Source of the DNA: Acanthochromis polyacanthus
Lineage: Eukaryota; Chordata; Actinopteri; Pomacentridae
DNA length: 64,000 nt
Direction: 5' to 3'
NCBI RefSeq assembly: GCF_021347895.1
Contig: NC_067120.1
Span: forward strand, 13,563,361 to 13,627,360
Below are positions 10,701-64,000 of this stretch, piece after piece. Under the pieces are notes generated by a model. The model saw only the letters and a program-made list of their open reading frames with translations. It was not told the DNA's origin and did no database searches. Position 1 is the first letter of the stretch; every line of letters begins with the position of its first letter. Both the position numbers and the translations under genes were made by a program.

Positions 10701-12194
10701 TACGCATCAACCTCCAAATCTATTGCTTTCCTCATTCTCTTGTGTACTTTTTGGAACAGAAATATGAAACTTTTATTCTCTGGATTATGATAAATCGCTT
10801 TTTCTCACCACTTACAAGACAAATTGGAAGCTAAAATAACTGATGCAATTTATTTGACCTATTAATTTTGACCTATTAACTTGATTTAATGACTGTATTT
10901 TTGGCAAAATGTTTTGTTTTATTCAATCTTTATCACTGTTGAAGTCACATATGCACTAATGGGTCATAATTAGGTCACAACACTGATACTTCAGGCAGAC
11001 GGTGATTCAAATGTTAGCCCCAAATCTGTCTTGTTTGAAGGGGCTGTAATGACTGACAAAAACTCTAAGTTTCCAGATTTTGTAATCTGAATGAAAAAGT
11101 AAAGATAAAAACATAAACTAATTTGTACAAAATATACAATTGATCACAAGTGATGGCAGATGTATTTCTAAGAACTAGACAACCGCTTAATAGGCGACTT
11201 AATTCATTCTAAAGTACTCTGCTGTTAATATAATTTACTGGAATATACTAAGTACATCAACTCAAGCACTGTCCTGTGAGTGTTTTCTTTCTTTTACTCT
11301 GCTACATCTCAGAGGGAAACACTGCATGTCTTACATTCGGACAGCTTGTGTTATGAAGATTTTTGTGCATCAAACATATGAAAGATTTATAAAATGCATT
11401 TTCTTGTAAATGATTCTACTGAACTTTTAACACAATGTTGTTAATTGATGAATTAATTAATAAATTGATAGTAAATTGGCAACTATTTTCATCGATTAGA
11501 GTAGTTATGACATTATTATCAGAATTTATGCAAACCAAACAATCAAATGATTTATGGATAAAACATATATATAATCAGCAGATTAATCAATTAAATGAAA
11601 ATAATCCCTACTTGCAGTTGAAAATAGAACAGTAAAATTCTGCTATTACACTGATGCAAGAGTAATAATAATCTAATTATATATCATATGATAGTATACC
11701 AGCAACTTTGGGCCACTTTTCTGTACTTTTACTTTTCATAGGTCTTCTTTTAGTACATTTTTGAGATAATATTCACATTCTTTTACTAAATATTTTCATT
11801 GCTGGGATTGAACAGTGTGATATCAGTACTTCTACTTAAATAAAGGGTGTGAATTTTTTAAAGATGTGTTTGGATGAAAAAGACAAAAAATGATTTTGCA
11901 CCTAAAGATCTAATTTTTTGCTGAGATCCTGCTTCAAAATAACGTGGTCTGAATATACAGATGAAAACTACATTTTAAATACGATACAATCTATAATCGT
12001 TTTGCGCTGTATTGACACTGGGTGTTACTGTGTGCTTCCAGTGTCCAGGGGCCTCCAGGGGCCCCTCTGACTTTAACTGGCAGTCTGCGCCTTTTAGGTG
12101 ACGGCGGATCGTGTAACATGAGTCGGGATGAAAACTGCTGGCTGGATCCGGCTGCCAGTCCAGATGCTGCTCGCCAAAGAGAGAGAGGAGGTGC

Positions 12195-12824
12195 ATGATG
12201 GATCCCGTCCCACTGCTGCTCATCTTAGTCGCATGTGTACCGCTGAGCCCAGCGGTCTACACCGGGCCCCTGCAGGCGGAGATCTCCAACGGAACCTTCC
12301 ATCACTTCTTCGTCCCGGACGGAGACTATGAGGAGACGGAGGACCCGGAGCAGTGCCAGATGCTGTTCAAGTTCTCGGACGTGTTTCCTTGCGGAGCCTC
12401 CGAGGACACAGACTCGGTGGTGCGCGACGACTTCGTCATCACCAAGCTGCAGGCGGAGGACGCGGCGCGCCTTTTGGAGAGCATCGGCCGGACCGTTGCG
12501 CACGACCTGGACGGAGAGGACAGCTACGGGAAGTTCCTCCAGCGGGAGATCAGCCAGATCAGCGAGGCCTTCTCCAGCGTGGACAAGTCGCTGCTGGAGC
12601 TGGAGGTGAAGTTTAAGCAGAGTCAGGAGACGGAGCTGAAAGAGGAGCAGCAGCTGAACGGCTACGTAGTGAAACAAGTGAGCGACATCAGGGGCGCGCT
12701 GAGGGAAACCACCGACATCTCCCAGGGACTGAAGGACAAACACGAGCTGCTGTCCCTCATCATCCGCAGTCATGGGACCAGACTGAGCCGCCTGAAGACT
12801 GAGTATCTCAACGTGGGCTCTTAG
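12195..12824 (+). CDS. fibin: Fin bud initiation factor (FIBIN)
   Basis: A single-exon gene of 209 codons. FIBIN is a small secreted vertebrate protein first linked to pectoral fin bud (forelimb) initiation; its biochemical action is poorly defined. The product starts with a hydrophobic signal peptide (residues about 2-20, MDPVPLLLILVACVPLS). The family hallmark NGTFHHFFVPDGDYEE follows near residue 32 and includes an NGT sequon. Further family blocks are DLDGEDSYGKFLQRE, the heptad-like region around SSVDKSLLELEVKFKQ, and the C-terminal IRSHGTRLSRLKTEYL. Length and the intronless structure match the family. Two ATGs are adjacent (12,195 and 12,198); the first is chosen, and the second would change the product by one residue. 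The coding region is much more GC-rich than its flanks. Identification is from recalled family sequence. Confidence 0.95.
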   Translation: MMDPVPLLLILVACVPLSPAVYTGPLQAEISNGTFHHFFVPDGDYEETEDPEQCQMLFKFSDVFPCGASEDTDSVVRDDFVITKLQAEDAARLLESIGRTVAHDLDGEDSYGKFLQREISQISEAFSSVDKSLLELEVKFKQSQETELKEEQQLNGYVVKQVSDIRGALRETTDISQGLKDKHELLSLIIRSHGTRLSRLKTEYLNVGS

Positions 12825-17852: not shown

Positions 17853-19644
<1,792 letters not shown>

Positions 19645-21337: not shown

Positions 21338-23796
21338 ATGATGGACGGATTCGTCATATCACCTGTAAGTTATTCGTTTCAGATTTTAACACAACCAATG
21401 AAGTTTTTGAGTATAGTTTGTTAGAGAGAATAGGCTATTTGACAAATTAATCTGTGTGAGTTACTAGAAGTTATATCTAGTGACATTTAAATGTTGTTCT
21501 TGTGGACAAGGTGGAACTTTAGGACATTGGGATTTTCATTTATTGACTATGTAGATACGAGAAGAGGAGTTTTGCTTGTGTTTAATAAGAATCACTAAGT
21601 AAATCTATTCTCGTAGTCTATTTGTTAGTTTATTATATTGATTTTTCTGTCTTTATATTCTTCTGAAAGCTTTTTAAATTCTAGAGTTAAGAACTAAAGG
21701 TCATATTTGACTTAGTTTTGCCCGGACAGAGAGATTCAGACCTTGAATTTTTCCCCTTCAAAGGCTTCAGAGGAAATTATTCCAGGCGAGCCAGAGAATT
21801 ATCGCCCTCCGGTAGAGCTGTACCCCTACCTCAGTACTGTGGGGGAGATTTATGAAGGTGAGGAGACTGGATGTACCCACTATATAAAATAAAAATCCTT
21901 ACACAGCCAGGTGCTTAAACTTACATAACTTTCCAGACCATAGATGGACCTTCCACTCTGAGCGAGTCCAGGCGTCAGACTTTGAGAATTCCCCGGTGAA
22001 TCACCTCACAGAGCTGCAGGCTGTGTCTCCTCAGCAGCTCATACAGCCCTACAGATACAGCAGCGAGTCTCTGCCTCTTCACCTGGACCCTCCACTCGTC
22101 CCTCTGTCGGTGTCGCCACAAGTAAGTCTACAGATGGAAGATTATGAGAGTGAAAAGTCACAGCGCCTGCATATATGACTGGAAATATAACAGTCCTGAC
22201 ATGAAAGATCGATATGATTACATCCTCTCATTATTAAATTCCATACAGTGTCTGTTTTGGCTGTCATTTTATTAATAGCAGGCAACAGTGATGCTTTGCA
22301 GTGACATTATATCAACTGTTACTACAGCAGTGATTCACATAAGTCTGTTTGCTCACGGAGAGATGACACATTTGCTCAGTGCAAGTGTAAGGATCTCAAG
22401 CATGAAAGGCCACTCACAGGAAAAAACTAAATCTGGGCTGATTCTCATCACGTTTGGGCACACTTGGCACTAATGTGACACAGCCTCTTTTCACATTTTA
22501 GGAGAACTTCACTTGACATGGAATTTAAATGTTAATTAGGGCTGTTGGTAATGGTTATTTTCATTAACGTTGTCTATTCTATTAATCCTTTAGCTCATGC
22601 ACTGATAGAAAATTATGAACAATGCCCAACAAGATATTCCAGAGCCCAAGTAGCATCGTTAAATAAAATCAGCAAATATTCGCAATTAAGAAGCTGAAAT
22701 CTGAGAGTTTGGAGTAAATGTTCAATTTAAATTGTGTTTCATTTATAGAGCACCAATTCATTACAGACGCAATCTGAGGTCAAGACCTTACAATATTACA
22801 TTATAGACGGAAGCCCAACAAATCCAACGAGTCTCTGTGAGCAGCTCTTTTGTGGATATGTGAGCTCCAGAATTTAATACTGTGATGTGTGTCTGTAGAA
22901 TCAATCTGCTGCTGCCTCCAAAATGAAAACACACTATTTTCAGGAATCATTCAAAGAAAACATTACGGATTTAGAGCTTTTATAATGTCCTTTTTTATAT
23001 AAATGCAATTTAATCTCCACAAATACAGAACACAATGTGGACAGTCTGGAATATTTTCACTGAAATGTCATCTGCACCACGTGGTACTGCTGAGCACTGA
23101 ATTCTATTTTGGCCGAGCAACTTCCTCTTTTGGTACAATGGCAGTGTTTAAAATGTCAGACGGTGAATAATTGCAAAACAGAACATTGCAGCCCGCTGCC
23201 TTCTTTGTGTAATCTCCAACTATTTATATTTCCCCTAAAGATCCAGTATTTCAACTACCCATACCAGGCCTCGTCCTCACCTGGACAGTACTACTCAGAG
23301 GAGGACAGAAGAGGAATCAGTCCTCCACTGGAGGTATCAGAGGGGGAGGAAGAATTTGAGGACCGCAGTCATTCTTCCTTCAGGAAAGACACTAGTGAGT
23401 ATTTGACACAAAAAATGCACTGATGTTAATACTGAAGTCTTCGTAAACTGACAGAAATTGCTTCAACAAATATCATATCTTCCAGACAATAAGAGGAAAA
23501 TCCGCCTGTACCAGTTTCTCCTGGACTTGCTAAGAAACGGCGATATGAGCGACAGCATCTGGTGGGTGGACCAGGACAAGGGCATCTTCCAGTTCTCCAC
23601 AAAACACAAAGAAGCTCTGGCAAGCCACTGGGGATTTCAGAAAGGAAACCGCAAAAAAATGACGTACCAAAAAATGGCTCGAGCTCTGAGGAACTATGGT
23701 AAAACTGGAGAGATCAAAAAAGTAAAGAAGAAGCTGACCTATCAGTTCAGTGAGGAAGTGCTGAGGAACCTGTATTTATGTCAGTATCCTCACTGA
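21338..23796 (+). CDS. spi1: PU.1/Spi-1-type ETS transcription factor
   Basis: Five exons: 21,338-21,364; 21,764-21,857; 21,937-22,121; 23,241-23,394; 23,486-23,796. They give 771 nt (256 aa) with clean GT-AG borders and consistent phases. PU.1 binds purine-rich GGAA sites and drives myeloid and B-lymphoid development. The N-terminus [15 protein letters not shown] parallels human MEGFPLVPP..SEDLVP, and the acidic/Gln part keeps LYPYLS, WTFHSE and [12 protein letters not shown]-like stretch ([16 protein letters not shown]) precedes the ETS domain (about residues 157-240). The ETS domain carries [18 protein letters not shown], the recognition helix [19 protein letters not shown] and KKKLTYQF. 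The tail after TYQF ([15 protein letters not shown]) differs from mammalian PU.1, which suggests one of the two teleost spi1 paralogues; which one cannot be decided here. Confidence 0.93.
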
Positions 23797-25382: not shown

Positions 25383-28300
25383 ATGAGAGTGAGGTTCGTA
25401 CTAGATGGTGTAAATAACTTGTTTATTTAATTCGTGTTTTCTGTTAGCAAACTTCCTGATTAGCCTGTCGCACATCGCATGTACCATCGAGGAGCTGTCT
25501 GTGTTTGTTGCCACAACTAATTCTGAGTTGTTAGTGTTTTGTTTGGTTCCTGACGTGCTAGTTGTGACATTAGTTATTCGACGTTACATCTAATGCAGCA
25601 TTCATAGTCTTTAGCTATCGATGACAGCTAGCTAAGGTTAGCTTGTTCTGTCGATGATTTGATTGTAGCGTCTAACGCTAGCTTCTGGCAGCTAACTGAG
25701 TTTGCTAAAAGGGCTGAACAATTATTCCATGTCAAATTAAAATGCAATGTAATAAGCGAATTTCAAAGGCTACAAATTAGTGTATATTTGTTCTACAGGA
25801 GGTCTGACTTAAGTTTTTAACTGTTGTCATTGGTATGACAGACATCCTTTGATGGTGTCTATCATAATGCTCCATCACATGTTTAAATCGGTTACACAGT
25901 GAATGTTGAACGGAAGTTTGACTTTTGAAAATCTTATAACAAAGAGATCGCTATGATGTCGCTCAAATCACCCAGCCCTATTTGCTACTTTATGTCAAAC
26001 TCCTACTTTGCTGATTAGTCTAATACAGGTTTAACTCCCAGAGTACTAACCAACTTGACCACTTGCTTTCCTCCAGTGAAGTCCATGCAGCCGAGTCTGT
26101 TGCCTACATGAACAGGGCAATGGTCAGGCTGCAGAATATTTGGGATGAAATAGGGATACCTGAAGAGCAGCGTGTGCAGAGAACCAATGATGTTAACAAG
26201 CACATTAAAGTAAGTCCAACAATGAAGTACATTACACTGTACAAAAATGTGACTGTTTTTCTTAGAGAAAAGTTCAATAGGCAATAGTCCACAAAAGGTT
26301 TTTGTGCTTTTCGTTGATCCACGCCCTAGTTGGGTGTGGCTTTAAATGACTGATCAAATGGTGTAACCAGGAGACACACTCCTCTGGTCAATGACTATCA
26401 AAGACCAACCTAAAAAATGCAGCTTTATTTAAGTGACACGATGCAAAAGATAACAGAAAGAAGAGAACGAGCTGCTGGATCCTGGCGGATAAAATATTAC
26501 ATGCTGCAGTTAGTCATTGCTCAGAACTAAACTAACAACCCCTTTTTTCCCATTTTCCTTCCCTGCAGGGTTTGCTGGACCTCATGATTGCAGAAGAAGA
26601 AGATCTCAAAAACGACTAATGAAAAGCATAGAGTCTGCTCGCGAAGAACTCAGTCAACTGTGCACTGAACTTCAGCTGCCCCTCTTTGAGGTACACTCTT
26701 ATTTAAGAAATGTGTGGTCGCTTCCTTGTCCATGTCCAGAAAATGTTGGTGTTTTTGGGGCTAACTTCTTGTCTTTCTTTGCAGGAGGAGGAAGGCTGCA
26801 CCGTGCTGCAGATGGAGAAGAACAGCCGCACACAACTAGAGGTGATGAGGGAGCACAAGAAGCAAAGAATGGAAGAGATTAAAAGCCTCAAAACCAAAGA
26901 CCGTGAGCTGTGTGACATTATGTGCACCACCCCCTTCAGCATCGACCACAACTCTGTTCCATCGCTGAAGCAACTGGAAGCCTATCGTGCCTACCTTGAT
27001 GAGCTGACTAAAGAAAAGGTGGAACTGGCATTCTGCTTCGCTAAACTGTTTCCTTGCATTTATTATTAGGTTTGTAACCCGTCTCACCATTTCAGGAGCG
27101 TCGTCATGAGGAATTTGTGGGCATCAAAAAGGAGATCGTTGTTTACATGGATGATCTGGAGCAACAACCAGAGACCAGTTTTGAAACGGATGTGATGTGT
27201 GAGGATGAGGAGGAATTCTGTCTGTCAGATGACAACATCGCAGCTCTGAAACTGCTTCTCAGTCAGGTGAGTTTAGGATATTTGCCTCAACATGTTTGCT
27301 TGTCTGCAGTATAATGTGTATATATAATATATTTGGTGTATTATTTGTGTCTCCCTCCAGCTACAAGAGCGCAAGGCAGAGAATGAGCTTCGGTGTTTTG
27401 GTCTCCGTACTAAGATCCGAGAGTTGTGGGATAGGCTTCGTATTCCTCAAGAGGACAGGGATGCCTTCGCAGAGCATATGGTCAAGTCAAAGAAGAAAAC
27501 ATTGAGGCAGTAAGAAGTTGACCTCCTGTGGTGTTTTACAATAATGATGAATGATTTCTGATAATGGAGTAGTGCGTTGTTTTCCCCAAGCATGCTTCTC
27601 CATATGAATTTGTAATACTGTCTGTGTGTTTCCAGCTCCAGACTGAGGTCCAGCGTCTAGAGGTGCTAAAAATGCAGAGCATGAAAAGTGTCATTGAGGC
27701 CATCAGAGTGGAGATTGCCCTTTTGTGGGAGAAATGCTTCTACAGCCAGGAACAGCAGCAAGCTTTGTTTCATATCATGACGGTGAATAGCTGTTGTTGA
27801 ATGAGGACGCCCTTACACCGAATCTAAACAACAAGTTTCGCACAAGAAGTGACTCAATGCATGTTTTCTTTCCACAGAGGATTTCACTGAAGAGCTTCTC
27901 AACCTGCATGAGGCAGAGGTCAGCACCCTGAAGAAGTATTACGAGAGCCACAGCGAACTCTTTGAGGGAGTTTCAAAATGGCAAGACAACTGGACCCTGT
28001 ACCTGGAACTTGATGTGAGTATTGTTCTCATTAGTGTGGCGTGGATGCTTTTCACCCTCGGGTCACAATTGACCTGTTTTAAAGTTCGAAAAATGTGGAG
28101 GAAAAAATACATATTTTCACAGTGAAACTTCTGATGTCTACATTTTCAACATTTTTAGGAAATCTTTGAACATTTTTGGTGGGGAAAAAAGAAATGTTCA
28201 AAATATTTCTTAAGAACATTCACATAAAAATTAGAAGTTTTACTGATTTATATGTCATAACTTCAGATATTTTTAGATTTTTGGGAAGATTCTTACTCAT

Positions 28301-54058: not shown

Positions 54059-54230
54059 GGGCAGTATGTGTAGCAGCGACAACCCAAACAGGTCCTCTTG
54101 GTGGAAGAACTGCGTCCGAATGGCAACTCCCTTTGTGCTCTTACCTTACTCACTGAACTCAAGTGCCATGGAGGACTCGAGTAGTTGACGTTTCCTGCTG
54201 CAACCTTCTCTTTTTCAGCTTTCTTCCAAG

Positions 54231-54731
54231 TCCGATCACGTAACCAATGGAGGGAAAACCACCTTCACCAACTGCCTGATCAAGAACCTGCCCAACTGCT
54301 GTGTGGTCCATCAGGATGACTTCTTCAAGCCCCAAGATCAGATTGAAGTTGGTGAAGATGGCTTTAAGCAGTACGATGTCATCACTGCTCTGGACATGGA
54401 TGCCTTGATGAGTACGATATTCGCGTGGCTGGAGAACCCGGTGAAGTTTGAGAAGTCTCATGGCGTTAATAACACCCTGGACACAGAGATCGTCCCGAAG
54501 TCCGACCACGAGGAGGAGGAGACTCACATCCTCATTGTGGAGGGCTTCCTGCTTCACACCTACAGGCCTTTGATGGACGTGCTAAACCAACGTTACTTTA
54601 TTTCCATCCCATATGAAGAATGCAAAAAGAGGAGGTGCTCTAGGAAGTACACGGTGCCAGACCCCCCCGGCCTGTTCGATGACCACGTCTGGACCATGGA
54701 CCTGCCACACAAGAACATCTACTCACTGTGA
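54231..54731 (+). pseudogene. nmrk2: Intronless, truncated nmrk2-like retrocopy
   Basis: An open stretch encodes the NMRK2 kinase core without any intron. NMRK2 phosphorylates nicotinamide riboside on the way to NAD. Visible are the P-loop [39 protein letters not shown], an insertion-bearing middle, [19 protein letters not shown] and [15 protein letters not shown]. Vertebrate NMRK2 is a multi-exon gene, so a continuous copy across these regions implies reverse transcription of an mRNA. The start is degenerate: before TNGGKTT the expected MK-I-GIGG residues are absent and no in-frame ATG precedes the P-loop. The end is truncated: a stop follows the [11 protein letters not shown] stretch, roughly 50 or more residues early. 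The core lacks internal stops, so the copy may be young. A still-expressed fragment cannot be excluded. Confidence 0.75.
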
Positions 54732-54896: not shown

Positions 54897-55155
54897 AACA
54901 GTAAAACTTCTAATATTTTCTTTCAGAACATTCACAAAAAAAAAAATCAACCAAAATCCAGTGAAATTCGCTGGATTTTGGTTGATTTTTTGTGAATGTT
55001 CTTAAGAAGCTTTTTAGCTTTTTTTTTCTTTTTGTTCAAAAATTTCCCTAAAACATTGCAAATGTTGACATCAGAAGTTTCACTGTGAAAATATATTTTT
55101 TCCCACATTTTCAAACTTTAAAATGGGTCAATTTGATCCTCAGGACGATATGGCC
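54897..55155 (-). mobile_element. TTAA-type MITE, copy 2 (partial) with hairpin
   Basis: The reverse complement matches the 61,344-61,852 element from near its GGGTCAAATT end to its internal hairpin. The hairpin here has arms 54,926-54,961 and 54,971-55,001, about 31-36 bp each. The outer end on one side is missing. Confidence 0.7.
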
Positions 55156-55794: not shown

Positions 55795-58700
55795 TTAGTT
55801 CTGTTTGAGTTTAACTCTGCAGGTTGTCACACTGCTGTTGTCCCACATGTACAAAAGCTTTTTGTTGGGATAGTATGACAGCATTGCCAAGATGCCGTTC
55901 GCTGGCCTTAAATCAAAGCTTGCATCCAGAGGAGTCTCTTTCTTTAAATCAAACGCATACGTCACTCTCCTGTCGTTGTCGTCTGTAAAATATAAAACCC
56001 CACACACAATGAAAGCGTTTCCTGCTTTAGTTGTTGGGTAAGCAGTGTTAATGACCGACTCCACAGAGAAAGTGTCAGGGTTGAGCTTTGCAACCATCGT
56101 GTCGTCGTCTGTCTTCGAAGCAAAAACAACCCAAAGTCCATTTTCATCCACTGCAAACTTGAAATACGTCTTTGAGTTGTGGAAAAGATAAGTGAGGTTG
56201 TTGTATCTGCTGTTGGGCATCATCAGAATGTTGGATCTCCTCGTGTTCAGGTCAAATCTGTAGAGTCAGAATATCATTCATGAGTAGCATAATAAGCTGA
56301 CAATAGGTGACTTCAGATGTCTTTGAAATAAAATAAAAGTTAATGAGAGAAAGCAAGTTATACATATTTTACACGAACACTTACTTTACAAGTCTGTTTG
56401 TTCCTGCGTTGTGGAAGTAAAATGACCTTTTGTAAACGATGTGACCACACCCCTGGTAGAACCTCTTGATGTCGATAGTTCTATAGCTTCCATCCTGAAA
56501 AGCTGAAATGTTCCTGGAATGCCCCAAAACTCGACCTGTTGGAGAAATGTTCCGGAGTTCAATCTAAATCTCACAAAACTCTGTTACGAAGTGAGAATTC
56601 GTGTCCACTGTTTAAACTACCTGAAAAATGTTCAGCCAGCCAGTATCGACCTTCATCCGGCTGAGACACATCAGACATCCAGGCTCCATAGGTGTTTTGC
56701 ATTTTGGTGGATCTCTCCGAGCATTTAATGGTTTTTATTTTACACTCTAAATAAATAGAGAATACTTCAGAATTTAAATATACTAGACATATAAAATAGA
56801 ACACTTAGATAATCAGCTAAAATGTTCTCACCAGTTTTCGTCCACATCTCAGTGGTGGTCACGTTGATCATATTAGAGGTCTGGAAAGACGATGAGTCTG
56901 AAGTAGAGGAGAAGGGTAAATTTACATTTTCATTACATTTAAAAGATAGATGTTTATTCTGTCTTCTTTCTTTTCTTTTCTGTCATTTTTATAATCATGT
57001 TTCAAAGTTCACAGTGACCTTTTGAGAGAAATTACAGAAATGACACAAGAAAAATTTAGATGTGCTAAGGTCAAAACTGAAACAACACATGGCAGATTCT
57101 TACCGCTTTCCATGGGTTTATCATTAACGTTTCCACTGCTGTTGAGAGTATTTCTCTTTTGATCCAGATCAGCAGACACCGAGGCTGCAAAATGAAAAGA
57201 AGCACATATACAGAAACACATTAGATAGAAATGAGGTTATATTCCAGTAAGTAAGATAAAATAAATAAATGAATTCATGCTTTTAAGTCAATTTTGCTTT
57301 AACATGTAATTCAGACGTCTCTTACTTGTTAATAAATTGTTTGGTGCCTCTGTAGCATTTTGTCTTTCGGCAGCATTTGAGGTGTGATGGTTGTTTTCTT
57401 GATGAAATAATATGGACTCTAAAAAACAAAGTATTCAGTTTAACAATAATCAAAATTCAACTGTCATTTACCGTCTCAGTGGTTTACCATTTCCCCTTTT
57501 TGTGTCCAGATGTTTCTTAGAGTCAGCAGCATTGAAAGTATCTCCATTTTGTTCTGCATCAGATGTGGCTGTAGAGATAAATAACACATTAAAGCATTGC
57601 AGTGCAGCACTTTCAATTTGAATATAATCTGCAGAAGGAGAGACGATTTTAAAGAGGCTTTGAATGAAGGAAGAAATTCAACTTTTCAATTCAACTTGAC
57701 CATTAAACTTGACAATCAGCAGTCTGTGCATCACTATGGATATTTATTCTGTTTTCTGCTATCATAAGCATTAAAGTAATCATTAAATATATCTTAAGGT
57801 GTTTAAAATAAGGCTTTGAATGAAAATATTCAAACTAGCTTTTTGAAGATCACAGTGAAATTTAAAGTAGTCATTTTTTACCTCTCTTCATGGGTGTTTC
57901 AGTGACAGTTCTGGAGGTATCTCTGGTTTGTTCTGCATCAAATGAAGCTGTAGAGTCAAATTTACATTAAATGTTACAGGGGAACACCTTTACTGTGAAT
58001 TCAAGCAACAGCAAGAGTGTGTGTTCAAGTTAATACGTTACAGATCTTTAATTCTTACCTGGTATTAATTCTTCTGGTCCCCCGGTAGCATTTTTAGAGT
58101 CAGTACCTTTCCAAGCGTGATGGCCGTCATGCTGATGAAATGGTGCTAAAATAAAGAAAGTATTGCTTTTAACGTGTTCTTTTCAACATAGAGTCAAAGT
58201 TTAGTTTGTCTCTACAGTCTTGATGGTTTACCAGGTTCTGTGTTTGTGTCCAGATGTTTGTCAGAGTCGGTAACACTGAAAGAATCTCTGGTGTTTTCAG
58301 CTGGATGTGATGTAGAGGATTCTGCAGGAAGGAAGATAAAATTGTATATAAATAACATCTAAATAATAATATAATAATAAATGTTGCATATTGCTGTAAT
58401 TTGAAACATAAATGTACTCAGTTTTTAGTAGTCTCTAACTCCTTGTTAAAAGTAGTATGAATTCAAAAGTCTGACATTTTTCATGTTTTAGTATTTTGAA
58501 ACTTTCAACTTTGTAACATTCAACATACAACTAATTTAGACAGCAGCTTGTGCATCTATTCAGTTATCAGCTGCTCTTTCTCATAAGAATGTTAAGTATT
58601 TATTAATCAAATAACTGTTAATGTGTTTCAAGTGAATCTTTTTGTAAATCACTGATTTTTTTAAGACTAGTGTGACTTCATCAGAAATAATATTAAATAC

Positions 58701-61700
58701 AAAACAACAGTTGTTACCGGTCCTCTTGTGCGTTTTATTGATGGTTCTCCTGTGATTTGAGGCGTCACTGTTTTTCTCTTTGTCACGTAGATCTGTAAAG
58801 TCAAATGACACATTGCAGCCTTACTTTAACACAAGACACAAAAAGAGAATGTTTTTAAATGTAACATTTCACAGCACAGGATTTCCTACCTGGTAATAAC
58901 ATTACTGGTCCCTCTGTGACATTTTTAGTGTCGGTATCACCGCTGTGATGTTCATGAAAAGGTCCTAAAACAGACAGTACTGGATTTTATATATTTGTTT
59001 TCCACACAGTCAAAGTTTGGTTTGTCTCTACAGTCTTGATGGTTTACCAGGTTCAACATTTGCGTCCAGATGTTTTCCAGAGTCGGTAACACTGAAAGCG
59101 TCTCTGGTGTTTTCAGCTGGATGTGATGTCGGTGATGCTGAGGAGAGAAAGATAAGATTCAACACAATTTCACATTCATATTTAAGTGTTGTGTGTTGCT
59201 GTTATTTAAAGCTTTAATTAAGATTTTCAAGGTCAAAGACCAATGTGACCCAGTCAGTAGTGATATTAAATACAATATGACAGTTCCTACCAGTACTCAT
59301 GTGCGTTTTATCGATGGTTATCCTGTGATTTAAAGCATCTCTGGTTTGTTCTGCATCAATTGGGGCTGTAGAATCGAATAATACAATAAATCTTACAGTG
59401 CAGCTCTTTTATTTTACTGAATATGAGCAACAAAAACAGGAAAATTAAGAATTCACAGCACCAGATTTCCTACCTGGTAATAATCTCTCTGTGGTATTTT
59501 TACTGTTGATATCACTGCTGTGATGTTCATGAAAAGCTCCTAAAAATAAAGAAAGTATCGGTTTTAACATGTTTTATCCCCACGTTGTCAAAGTCTGGTT
59601 TGATGGTTTACCAGGTTCCATGTTTGTGTCCTGATATTTCTCGGAGTCGGTAACACTGAGAGCATCTGTGGTGTCTTCAGCTGGATGTGATGTTGGTGAT
59701 TCTGCAGCAATAAAGATAAGACTGTAGATAAATAACAATTAAACAATCTACTCTTGTATATAATTGTAATTTGAAGCTTAAACTCACCATTTACTCCTTG
59801 CATTTTTATCAATCTCTAATTGCCAGTTAAATATAGTTCATTATTCTTGGATAAGTATGAATTCTAAAGTCTGATTCACATTTTTTCTTGGATACCTCAT
59901 GTTTCATGAGATGTACTTGTACTGTAGCATTCAACATTCAACTAACTTAAACAGCAGCTTGTGCATCGTGGATATTTGTTCCGTTTTCAGCTGCTATATA
60001 AAATAAGAATTCAGGTAATTCTGAATCATATTCCTGTGCATGGATTTCAAGCAAATCTTAGAGTGAAAAAAAATGATTAAGATCATGATGAATTATAAAG
60101 ATTAATGTCAATATTAGTATGAAAAACAGCATGGCATTTTTTACCAGTCTTCATGGGTCTTTCATTTACGGTTCTCCTGTGATTTAAGGCGTCGTTTTGT
60201 TCTTTATCAAGTGGAGCTGTAAAGTCAAATGACACATAAAAAAATACAGTGGGGCAGTTTTGCTTAATGTAAGAGACTAAAAGTTAAAGTTGATAATTCG
60301 CTGTACACAGGACTTCCTACCTGGTAATAATTTTACAGCTTCCTCTGTCACATTTTCAGTATTGATATCTTTTAAGGTACGGATGTCATCTTGAAATGTT
60401 ACAGGCTCTAGAAAGTTTTAAAAAATGCTATGTTTAACTTGTTTTCTGTCCCTTTTTGACACAGGAATGTGCAGTTTGTTATTGCAGTCTTGATGGTTTA
60501 CCAGGCTCCATGGTTGTGTCCAGATGTTTCTCAGAGTCGGGAACAATAAAAGCATCTCTGGTGTTTTCAGCTGGATGTGATGTTGGCGATTCTGCAGAAA
60601 GAGAAATAAGTGCTGGAAATATTTAACTGTTGTATACTTCTATCATTTGAAGCTTAGATTCACAACTTTCTCATGACTTGTTATCAGCCTGATTGCAAGC
60701 TACATGTAGATTGTTATTCTGGGATGAAAATAAAGTGAAATTCAGATTTTTTTTCACATGTATTCCATGTATCAGGACAAATATTTATGCTGGTAATGTC
60801 CTGTAATACTGACAAGTGAAACTTAACATGTAACATTCAACACACCAACTACAGTTTGTTACTTTAAAGTCACTACATCTAGTAAGCATTAAAGTAACAG
60901 TATGACAGTTTTTTTTTTACCAGTCCTCATGGGTGTTTTATTCATGGTTCTCCTGTCTTTTAAGGCATCTCTATTTTGTTCTGCATCATCTGGGGCTGTA
61001 GAGTCAAATAAATATTACACCTTTACTGTGAATACATGCGAGAAAAATAAGATGTTTTTAGGGTAATAATTCACAGCACAGGTTTTCCTACCTGGCAATA
61101 ATTTTACTGGTTCTTCTGTCACATTTTTGATATCATTCAAGGTGCCTTCGCTGTTGTGCTGATGAAATATTATCGGCTCTAGGGGAAAAAAAGAATAAAA
61201 GTATAAGGTTTCACATTTTTTTGTTTGTTTTTCATTTTGGCATGGGAAATGTCCAAGAATACAGACTATTAAACTTAACAGGTAGTCACCACGCTACCTG
61301 ATTTGAACAGCAGTCTGTGCATGTTTATTCTGTGCCATCTTAACCCTCGTGTCGTCCGGGTCAAATTAACCCCTTTTTAAAATTTGAAAATGTGGGAAAA
61401 AATAAATATTTTCACAGTGAAACTTCTGATGTTCACATTTTCAATATTTTTGAGAAATTTTTGGACATTTTTCGGTCAAAAAAATGTTTAAAAAATGTTT
61501 CTTCAGAACATTGACCAAAAAAAATCAACCAATTTTTTTTGTCAATGTTCTTAAGAAAATAGAAGTTTTACTGATATATATGTAACCATTTTAGATATTT
61601 CTAATCATTTTTTGGAAGATTTTTACTATTTTTTTGAAAATATTTACAAGAATTTTCTTGCCAAATTTTGGTGATTTTTAAAATAAAAATTTTAAGGGAA

Positions 61701-63023
61701 ACTTTTAAGGACTTACTGGAATTTTCTCCCCAAAGGTTTTGCAAATTTTCAGAAATTTGGGGATTTTTTTTTTCTTTTGCTGAATTTTTGGATTTTTTTT
61801 CAGACAAGGAAACAATATTTTTTGGTGCCCACAAATGCAGACAACAGGAGGGTTAAGCATTAAAGTCATTATTAAATATATCTTAATGTGTTTAAAATAA
61901 TTCAAACTAACATTTTGAAGATCATAGTGAGTTTAAGCATCAACTTCAGTCAGTTTTTACCTCTCTTCATGGGCGTTTCAGTGACAGTTCTGGAGGTATC
62001 TCTGGTTTGTTCTGCATCAAACAGAGCTGTAGAGTCAAATGATACATTAAACGTTAAATGGGAACACATACACTGTGAATCCAAGCAACAGCAAGAGGAT
62101 ATTTTAAGTCACAGCACGGAATCACCTACCTGGTATTAATTTTTTTGGTCCCCCTGTTGTATTTTTAGCGTCGGTATCTTTCAAGGTGTCGTGGCTGTCA
62201 TGCTGATGAAATGGCACTAAAATAAAGATTTTAGATTTTACATGCTTGCTTTCCACAAAGTCAAATTTTGGTTTGTCTCTACAGCCTTTTGATGGTTTAC
62301 CAGGTTCTGTGTTTGTGTCCAGATGTTTCTCAGAATCGGCAGTACTGAGAACATCTCTGGTGTCTTCAGGTGGATGTGGTGTTGAGGATTCTGTAGAAAG
62401 AAAGATAAGATTCAGCAACAAGAGCTGGTAGACACATGAAATACGTATACTATGTTAATAGCATGATAATATTTAAGTGTTGTTTACTACTGTGATATGA
62501 AGCTTTAAGTCAGCTTTCAAGGTCATGGTGAATTTTACACCATGATGTGACCCAGTCAGCACTGATATTAAATACAATATGACAGTTAATACCACTCTTC
62601 ATGGGTGTTTTGTTGATGGTTCTCCTGTGATTTAAAGCATCTCTGCTTTGTTCTGCATCAGTGGGGGCTGTAGAATCAAATGACACAATAAATTTTGAAG
62701 TACAACACTTTAAACACAAGAGACAAAAATAGAATATTAGAAGTTAATAATTCACAACACAGGATTTCCTACCTGGTAATAATTTTACTGGTCCCTCTGT
62801 AACATTTTCGGTGTTGATATTACGGCTGCCACGATCAGCTAAAGGTCCTAAAATAAATTAAGTATTGGTTTTAACATGTTTTGTTACCCACGTAGGGAAA
62901 GTTTCGTTTGTCTCTACAGTCTTGATGGTTTACCAGGTTCCATGCTTGTGTCCAGATGTTTGTCAGAGTCGGTAACACTGAGAGCATCTGTGGTGTCTTC
63001 AGCTGGATGTGATGTTGGTGATG
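55795..63023 (-). CDS. Gliomedin-like olfactomedin-domain protein, 5' end outside window
   Basis: Twenty-seven exons seen (889 codons). The 3' exons are 56,832-56,897; 56,621-56,746; 56,385-56,535; 55,795-56,257. They encode a complete olfactomedin beta-propeller of about 246 residues: KCSERSTKMQNTYGAWMSD, WLAEHFSG, FYQGCGHIVY, YLFHNSKTYFKFAVDENGLW, MVAKLNPDTFSVE, NTAYPTTKAGNAFIVCGVLY, LAMLSYYPNKKLLYMWD, and the end RVKLKQN. The two cysteines (KCSER, IVCGV) are where the domain's disulphide is expected. Among families I recall, gliomedin is closest (its WVTEHFSG and SKAGNAFI blocks). Gliomedin clusters sodium channels at nodes of Ranvier, but it has collagen repeats where this gene has the exon array at 57,104-63,023. 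No collagen repeat or start codon is in the window, so the N-terminus and exact orthology are open. Confidence 0.82.
57104..63023 (-). repeat. Tandem array of three-exon units in the olfactomedin gene
   Basis: Twenty-three exons, all phase 1-1, 66-93 nt. In transcription order they repeat as A-C-B. A exons: 62,934-63,023; 62,301-62,390; 60,502-60,591; 59,612-59,701; 59,048-59,137; 58,232-58,321; 57,488-57,568 (core SEKHLDTNTEPG). C exons: 62,773-62,847; 62,130-62,216; 61,092-61,178; 60,321-60,407; 59,474-59,539; 58,890-58,964; 58,059-58,145; 57,326-57,418 (core KNVTEGPVKLLPG). B exons: 62,593-62,667; 61,961-62,026; 60,921-60,995; 60,145-60,216; 59,291-59,365; 58,718-58,792; 57,882-57,947; 57,104-57,184 (core DAEQTRDALNHRRTINKT). 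That makes eight units, the third lacking A, and 621 residues in all. C and many B exons carry N-glycosylation sequons (NVT, NTT, NAT, NKT). Cysteine is essentially absent. Introns are duplicated with the exons. Confidence 0.88.
61340..61856 (+). mobile_element. TTAA-type MITE, copy 3 (complete, with target duplication)
   Basis: Bounded by TTAA at 61,340-61,343 and 61,853-61,856. The terminal inverted repeats are CCCTCGTGTCGTC and, reversed, CCCTCCTGTTGTC. About 509 bp, AT-rich, with an internal hairpin near 61,505-61,555 and no transposase. TTAA targets with CCCT ends suggest a piggyBac- or Kolobok-mobilised element. It is inserted in the intron between a C and a B exon of the olfactomedin array. 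Confidence 0.9.
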
Positions 63024-63233
63024 CTGCAGAAAAAGCTGGTACACACATGAAACATTATTACCATAACACAGAAGAAAATATGGAGGCATAATTCATAGAC
63101 AGCATAGAGTTTCCACATCAGGATTATTATATCAGTCATTGTTGTGTACGAGTTTTATTTGCATTTGATTTCAAGTCACAAGTTTTTGTACATCCCTCGC
63201 TGTGGGTTAACCAACACTGTCAATTCTTGCTTA

Positions 63234-63508
63234 TTAACCCTCCTGTTGTCCTCATTTACAGGTACCAAAACATATTGTTGCCTTGTCTGGAAAAAAATCC
63301 AAAAATTCAGCAAAAAAAAAAAATTCCCCAAATTTCTGAAAATTTGCAAAACCTTCAAGAAGAAAATTCCAATAATTCCTTCAAAGTTTCCCTTAAAAAT
63401 TTTGATTTAAAAAACATCCCCCAAATCAGGCAAGAAAATTCTTGTAAATAATTTCAAAAAATGAGTAAAAATCTTCCCAAAAATTCTAAAAATATCTAAA
63501 ATGATTAC
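63234..63508 (-). mobile_element. TTAA-type MITE, copy 4 (truncated)
   Basis: Starts TTAACCCTCCTGTTGTCCTC and runs as the reverse complement of copy 3 through the GGAAAAAAATCCAAAAATTC and ATTTCTGAAAATTTGCAAAA stretches. It breaks off near 63,508, where the THAP-element sequence begins. Confidence 0.8.
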
Positions 63509-63840
63509 ATATAGACCCTTTAATGACCCACGTCATGAATGACGTCACAACTTTAGCTGGAGGCAAAAGAGGAAGCCCGCGGCCAGACAGAAAGGCGAAA
63601 AACTGAGGGACTAGGCTCTATCAACTTTTCTAAAATGTCGTCCTGCTGTGTTTTTGGATGCCAGAATAGGAGGGATGACATTGGCAAACGCAAATTAAAG
63701 TTTTATAGGATTCCACCGAACACTCGTGCTCAGAGGGAACGAAAACAGTTGTGGTTAAATGCACTGAGGCGAAAAGACTGGACAGAGACGATCAGCTGCA
63801 GTCAATTCCAGCCATTTTCAGTACAAAAAATCGCAAATAT
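63509..63840 (+). mobile_element. THAP-domain transposon fragment
   Basis: From the ATG at 63,634 the frame gives MSSCCVFGCQNRR, then KLKFYRIPPN and QLWLNALRRKDW. This is the N-terminal part of a THAP (C2CH) zinc finger: CxxxC near the start, the FxxxP turn and the conserved W. The expected C-terminal C-x2-H is damaged: CSQF stands where CSxHF is expected. The frame runs into repeat sequence around 63,830. THAP domains occur in P-element-like transposases and domesticated derivatives. Only a fragment is present, so it is probably dead. Confidence 0.65.
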
Positions 63841-64000
63841 TCTATTTGTAAATAAAAAATATTCAATTCAATTCAATTCAGCTTTATTCCAGACACTGGG
63901 TCCAAATACACACACCATAAGAACAAGGACACAACAAGACACAGAAAAAAATACAATCAAAAACAATAACCCGTTAAATATGACAAGAAATACAGGGAAT
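63841..64000. repeat. Repeat tail at the window edge
   Basis: Four AATTC pentamers lead into a GCTTTATTCC-type stretch and A-rich sequence, as in the 3' ends of many fish retroelements. It is cut by the window end. Confidence 0.45.

Follow-up and report, generated by a model that had tools for sequence, protein, structure and literature searches.

A gliomedin duplicate of the spiny chromis with a long linker encoded by ordered classes of symmetric exons

As described in passages of three reports, gliomedin is a type II colmedin that oligomerises and binds NF186 and NrCAM (PMC7848082, PMC3810605, PMC4206993), and one of these passages describes its release by furin and BMP-1 (PMC3810605). In part of the text of Castro et al. 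(2005, PMC1215479), a second, ray-fin-specific colmedin termed COL1b is ascribed to a further genome duplication. The present analysis concerns a stretch of 64,000 nucleotides (nt) from the coral-reef fish Acanthochromis polyacanthus (spiny chromis; NC_067120.1, positions 13,563,361 to 13,627,360), referred to as the window, the minus strand of which carries LOC110950355, an olfactomedin gene with a long array of short exons. Gliomedin is a nerve-junction protein, and its binding of neurofascin-186 and NrCAM takes place at nodes of Ranvier. Mucin-type stalks are repeated, Thr-rich spacers that usually have a very high Ser/Thr/Pro content and dense O-glycosylation, and collagens and titin contain long runs of in-frame exons, the number or choice of which determines how long an extended segment is.

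Our preferred reading, held with slightly more belief than doubt, is that this gene makes a membrane-anchored protein in which an olfactomedin head is carried on a long, disordered tether of adjustable length bearing predicted N-linked glycans.

Exon structure of the array gene

On its sequence, LOC110950355 is a gliomedin duplicate, and the window holds the 3' part of the gene. The search for homologues that had been proposed in the initial annotation of this DNA returned LOC110950355 isoform X3, a predicted protein of 1219 residues (labelled P0001), which was identical over 889 residues to the protein joined from the window. The 5' exons expected beyond position 64,000 were also found. Thus, with upstream DNA added, the complete protein was placed without mismatch on 37 exons, which run from 69534 to 55798 in window coordinates, the stop codon excluded. 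Ten of these exons lie past 64000, up to 69534, and comprise the N-terminus, the collagen part and five linker exons. The protein contains Pfam collagen (PF01391) and olfactomedin domains. In agreement with its description as an olfactomedin protein, the olfactomedin domain (PF02191, 218 bits) matched gliomedin best among proteins of the PDB set (215 bits, as opposed to 102 bits for noelin, the next family). The N-terminus contains a hydrophobic stretch, and a furin-like RIRR is present at residue 79, as is RNKR at residue 107 of Stegastes gliomedin (sequence motif only). The suggestion that the array replaces the collagen repeats of gliomedin was rejected, PF01391 and a shortened helix of 12 Gly-X-Y triplets being kept in the same protein, upstream of the array and outside the window (exons at 68205-68188, 68108-68037 and 67223-67134).

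Exons 3 to 35, a consecutive run of 33 among the 37, are all phase 1-1, so that whole exons or triads could be gained or skipped with the frame intact. This run consists of three collagen exons (18, 72 and 90 nt), 29 linker exons and the first olfactomedin exon; the linker exons in turn comprise the five beyond the window, the 23 recognised previously and one last linker exon. The array of 23 occupies 63023 to 57104 of the minus strand, and the claim that every member is phase 1-1 was borne out (23/23). AG before and GT after the exon, a length divisible by 3 and an open coding frame were likewise each present in 23/23 (the other two frames were open in 11/46 readings). Together these exons encode 621 residues, compared with the estimate of about 620, and no cysteine. 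The annotated protein uses acceptor 63035 for the first of them as opposed to 63023 in the initial annotation.

Sorting by pairwise peptide score gave three classes in the order A-C-B, with the top-scoring peptide from the same class for 22/22 classed exons. An eight-fold repeat in strict order had been described; the order was found, as were eight C and eight B exons, but the A slots hold only seven exons, of which one is mixed (X8, closest to A7). Exon length within a class varied by multiples of 3 (A, 90 nt; C, 66-93 nt; B, 66-81 nt), and no such pattern was present among the intron lengths of the array. The features of the gene within the window are as follows.

62934..63035, minus strand, array exon A1 (acceptor 63035 annotated, 63023 initially)
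62773..62847, minus strand, array exon C1, sequon NVT
62593..62667, minus strand, array exon B1, sequon NKT
62301..62390, minus strand, array exon A2
62130..62216, minus strand, array exon C2, sequon NTT
61961..62026, minus strand, array exon B2
61179..61960, minus strand, 782-nt intron at the place of the third A exon, remnant not detected
61092..61178, minus strand, array exon C3, sequon NVT, missing from the clownfish isoform compared
60921..60995, minus strand, array exon B3, sequon NKT
60502..60591, minus strand, array exon A4
60321..60407, minus strand, array exon C4, sequon NVT
60145..60216, minus strand, array exon B4
59612..59701, minus strand, array exon A5
59474..59539, minus strand, array exon C5, sequon NTT
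59291..59365, minus strand, array exon B5
59048..59137, minus strand, array exon A6
58890..58964, minus strand, array exon C6, sequon NVT
58718..58792, minus strand, array exon B6, sequon NKT
58232..58321, minus strand, array exon A7
58059..58145, minus strand, array exon C7, sequon NAT
57882..57947, minus strand, array exon B7
57628..57641, minus strand, A-type acceptor-like 14-nt piece upstream of X8 (13/14 nt)
57488..57568, minus strand, eighth A slot, occupied by the mixed exon X8 with an A-like donor and 3' part and a 5' part B-like by eye
57326..57418, minus strand, array exon C8, sequon NAT
57104..57184, minus strand, array exon B8, sequon NSS
56832..56897, minus strand, last linker exon, phase 1-1, class not clear
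56621..56746, minus strand, olfactomedin exon 1, 126 nt, phase 1-1, size as in ordinary gliomedin
56385..56535, minus strand, olfactomedin exon 2
55795..56257, minus strand, olfactomedin exon 3 and stop codon

An A exon is absent between B2 (61961) and C3 (61178), and no remnant of one was found in the intron between them. In X8 (57568-57488), the 3' part and donor gave a 64-nt match to an A exon at 78%, the 5' part and acceptor were B-like as judged by eye, and the A-type acceptor piece lies upstream. From its sequence, X8 resembles what an exchange between exons of two classes would leave behind. A common origin of the three classes was examined by profile comparison, which gave P values of 0.0027 (A-B), 0.0096 (B-C) and 0.16 (A-C); the probabilities stayed below 5%. 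Similar A/T-rich stretches with 'tttttgg' and 'aaatttttg' runs were seen by eye at 54940-55120, 61360-61850 and 63300-63560. The second of these falls in the enlarged intron that lacks the third A exon, and the stretches are possibly copies of one mobile element.

The sister gene and the distribution of the array

The same genome also carries an ordinary gliomedin with exons of 52, 18, 99, 102, 117, 84 and 126 nt, compared with 52, 18, 72 and 90 nt, 29 linker exons and 126 nt for the array gene. Thus, where the ordinary copy has one 84-nt exon ahead of its olfactomedin domain, the array copy has 29 exons, and the 12 Gly-X-Y triplets of the array copy compare with 29 in Stegastes gliomedin. The exon skeleton shared by the two copies indicates that the phase 1-1 frame predates the array. 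The one linker exon of ordinary gliomedin may have been the starting point of the array; that exon fits the array exons in position, phase and size (84 nt compared with 66-93 nt). A sequence trace of descent from that exon was looked for and not found: a profile of 104 distinct ordinary linkers performed no better than shuffles in eight relatives, the observed score being reached by 12 to 107 of 200 shuffles. The class C profile reached no more than 9.7 bits when run against ordinary linkers, a value obtained without a shuffled control.

An olfactomedin-domain tree of 71 rows, selected from 239 proteins, separated 33 rows that included LOC110950355 from 38 others (support 100/96), among which were the ordinary A. 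polyacanthus gliomedin and the gliomedins of sharks and land vertebrates. When the tree is read starting from sharks and land vertebrates, the array copy resembles a sister group of the ordinary copies of teleosts, some forks being weak, and the pattern looks like what a teleost duplication would give. One long-branched Denticeps row stood beside the array copy. Both copies were present in 16/16 species, which were chosen by matching names, and the array gene is likely the same as COL1b. The A. polyacanthus genome gave 43 olfactomedin matches, two places among which were examined. The ordinary copy is compact (C2:4057221-4059016), and its 102-nt collagen exon is apparently followed by a GC donor. 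In the part of a tuna study that mentions gldn (PMC10449831), this gene, which could be either gliomedin copy, was up in female gonads.

Relatives of the array protein were taken to be 120 of 223 matching proteins, from 85 named species and one more; unit and species counts below refer to these 120, a unit is a profile match of at least 7 bits in a predicted protein, and species names were transcribed by hand. The class profiles were built from the 120 proteins and found 25/28 array exons in LOC110950355, so that unit counts are approximate and too low. Among the matches listed, the 85 named species had 6-27 units (median 14), and 775/1145 neighbour steps followed the A-C-B order, compared with a mean of 396 and a maximum of 453 after shuffling. 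The class motifs were common to distant fish. The age of the array was assessed in relatives outside profile building, with 200 shuffles per relative. Scores that no shuffle reached (0/200 each) were obtained for the A profile in toadfish (41.7 bits), for A, C and B in Diretmus (17.9, 40.5 and 12.5 bits) and, in three salmonids, for C (17.4, 18.7 and 10.2 bits) and more weakly for A (9.8, 8.9 and 7.2 bits). Profile matches to A, C and B were sought in pike and none was found; two gadids had no units except for a marginal B in one (3.2 bits, shuffled maximum 3.0). In pike (Esox lucius, P0161), residues 1-155 before the olfactomedin domain contain another repeat, of period 14, in which 50/141 positions were alike, a count made without a shuffled control.

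These results bear on the possibility that the array is a pseudo-exon cluster or an assembly error outside any working transcript. All the proteins compared are predictions, as such an artefact would allow, but splice sites, frame and phase are intact in 23/23 exons, the array recurs in clownfish and in proteins of the 85 named species, and the copies have diverged from one another and are therefore not recent assembly duplicates. An artefact is accordingly highly improbable, and a pseudogene was judged very unlikely on the same intact exons, clownfish array and named species.

In databases, the array gene appears under uncharacterised, gliomedin-like or misleading names, and the array would explain the misleading names of several entries. 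Relatives named mucin-2-like, splA kinase, dentin sialophosphoprotein-like, Ras GEF P, FLO11-like and serine-rich adhesin-like (P0009, P0042, P0063, P0064, P0071, P0111) probably owe these names to repeat composition.

Properties of the linker and change of the array

The array part of the window (the window stretch) had been described as rich in Ser, Thr and Asn with regular N-glycosylation sequons. Compared with typical protein values, only Thr (12.7%) and Asn (7.1%) are raised and Ser (8.2%) is not. Regularity of sequons was evident for class C (8/8 exons) but not for the other classes. In the whole 812-residue linker of LOC110950355, 20 sequons were present compared with 12.0 after shuffling (p = 0.008). 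Across the family, with one protein per species, sequons occurred in 397/476 C, 256/338 B and 223/417 A units and exceeded shuffles (z > 2) in 71/86 linkers. The linker is predicted to be disordered from an AlphaFold model of an 801-residue Stegastes relative, used in place of the larger LOC110950355 protein and supported by 20 aligned sequences, in which the predicted local distance difference test score (pLDDT) was below 50 at residues 63-554 (mean 46.5 for the model), with a helix at 8-64 and strands over the olfactomedin part. The view of the linker as a spacer rich in glycosylation motifs was upheld by this prediction and by the sequon excess.

Two other readings concern what the linker does. 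In the first, it is a mucin-like coat that repels cells or microbes, with sugar load mattering more than length. The sequon excess, the Thr and Pro (7.7%) content of the window stretch and the mucin-2-like or adhesin-like labels given to relatives by some sources are in keeping with such a shield, but Ser plus Thr reaches only 21% in the window stretch (median of 23% for units across the family), the composition is acidic and mixed, and the N-terminus and head are of gliomedin type. We regard a shield as improbable, and the likeness to mucin stalks put forward initially proved weak in view of the Ser, Thr and Pro content and the many small exons. In the second, A, C and B would each bind a partner, with copy number providing avidity or a decoy. 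Three conserved classes in fixed order, with motifs shared by distant fish, would be expected of recognition modules; the array exons, however, had no Pfam match, the units lack cysteine, model confidence was low and the copies have diverged in sequence, and this reading is accordingly given very little credence.

Spiny chromis and clownfish proteins were compared part by part. The N-terminus with the collagen part was identical at 153/162 positions, the olfactomedin part at 223/245 and the linker at 656/796 with 29 gap columns. The two arrays aligned over their whole length; both lack the third A and contain X8, and the clownfish isoform compared lacked C3. When exons were compared one by one, the order of the best clownfish matches was kept for 19/23; the others were B2, C3, A6 and C7, three of which matched another copy of their own class better. 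Thus, array length is not in constant flux, and of the rapid evolution proposed initially, different unit numbers between species were supported but a high rate of change everywhere was not. Among profile units of spiny chromis and clownfish, 43/52 matched best in the other species, and among 14 proteins from different families 164/266 matched best inside their own protein, which together argue for both retention and local amplification.

Predicted isoforms differed by blocks inside the linker, in keeping with the exon skipping suggested initially. Isoforms were compared in species with more than one listed cluster, each isoform being in a separate 90% cluster, and differences of fewer than 15 residues were excluded. 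In 34 comparisons from 18 species, 38 differences of at least 15 residues were noted, 38/38 of them inside the linker; these ranged in length from 19 to 207 residues, and the aligned residues contained 8 substitutions overall.

In the preferred reading of a head on an adjustable tether, unequal exchange would add whole exons or triads and splicing would skip them with the frame unbroken, such that copy number would determine reach on the evolutionary scale and exon choice would do so within the animal. By analogy with gliomedin, the protein would oligomerise through its N-terminal part, might be released at the furin-like RIRR site and would bind cell-surface partners through its head. The predicted tether likely sets how far the binding head reaches. 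A more specific version, in which the teleost duplicate turned a single linker exon into a splicing-controlled ruler of up to 29 symmetric exons, by which an axo-glial adhesion head would have both its reach and its glycan load adjusted one exon at a time, the sister gene keeping a short collagen stalk, is tentative and rather doubtful.

Several points weigh against the adjustable tether. All compared proteins are predicted models, low pLDDT is a proxy for disorder, the sequon excess of the window stretch itself is marginal (13 compared with a shuffled mean of 8.4, p = 0.057), and the spiny chromis and clownfish arrays contain almost the same units, which does not point to tuning of length. 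In addition, the ratio of nonsynonymous to synonymous change (dN/dS) between copies in the window, by a simple counting method, was 0.63 (A), 0.70 (C) and 0.58 (B), indicating weak constraint. Such constraint fits the main rival, permissive drift, in which a disordered linker of symmetric exons tolerates duplication and skipping, its length is unselected and differences in it do little. Drift would also account for the lower conservation of the linker than of the olfactomedin part between spiny chromis and clownfish, for the resemblance of X8 and the missing A to exchange accidents, and for the units that match best in their own protein. It is less easily reconciled with frame and splice sites intact in all 23 exons, unit order kept between species, the class C sequon retained in most C units and the absence of cysteine from all units of 86 linkers. 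We consider drift possible but on the whole unlikely.

Elsewhere in the window, open frames near the array gene (12132-12824, 17853-18455, 23452-23796, 26707-27069 and 54189-54731) were associated with Pfam Fibin, claudin-like, Ets and MAP65/ASE1, and an AAA_18 match in the frame at 54189-54731 was below the cut-off.

Comparison with known systems

No title or abstract opening found in the open-access literature described the array. Gliomedin, the teleost duplicate, symmetric exons and glycosylated linkers are known parts; the combination of a gliomedin duplicate with 29 linker exons in ordered triads appears to be new. If the preferred reading of an adjustable tether is true, one genome holds a matched pair of gliomedins whose related heads sit on a short stalk and on a 29-exon tether, respectively, and what tether length contributes to cell adhesion would be testable within one animal. 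The array would also be a clear case of a pre-existing exon-phase frame used to grow a new protein segment.

The array gene resembles gliomedin (GLDN) in its N-terminal helix, furin-like site, 52- and 18-nt exons, collagen helix, olfactomedin head, 126-nt first olfactomedin exon and the phase 1-1 exons between. It differs in having 29 linker exons as opposed to one and 12 Gly-X-Y triplets as opposed to 29 (Stegastes), and in its separate branch of the tree. The short, one-exon linker of ordinary gliomedin is not found in the array copy, nor is it treated as family-defining in the passages on gliomedin cited above. COL1b and the array gene are both a second fish colmedin, and the part of the COL1b report cited here (PMC1215479) makes no mention of a repeat array. 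Like mucin stalks, the array is a repeated, Thr-rich and probably glycosylated spacer; unlike them, it has a lower content of Ser plus Thr, N-sequons in one class, small symmetric exons and gliomedin ends. As in the exon runs of collagens and titin, exon number or choice would govern its length, but the array is made of three ordered exon classes and belongs to the linker of a single gliomedin paralog of fish.

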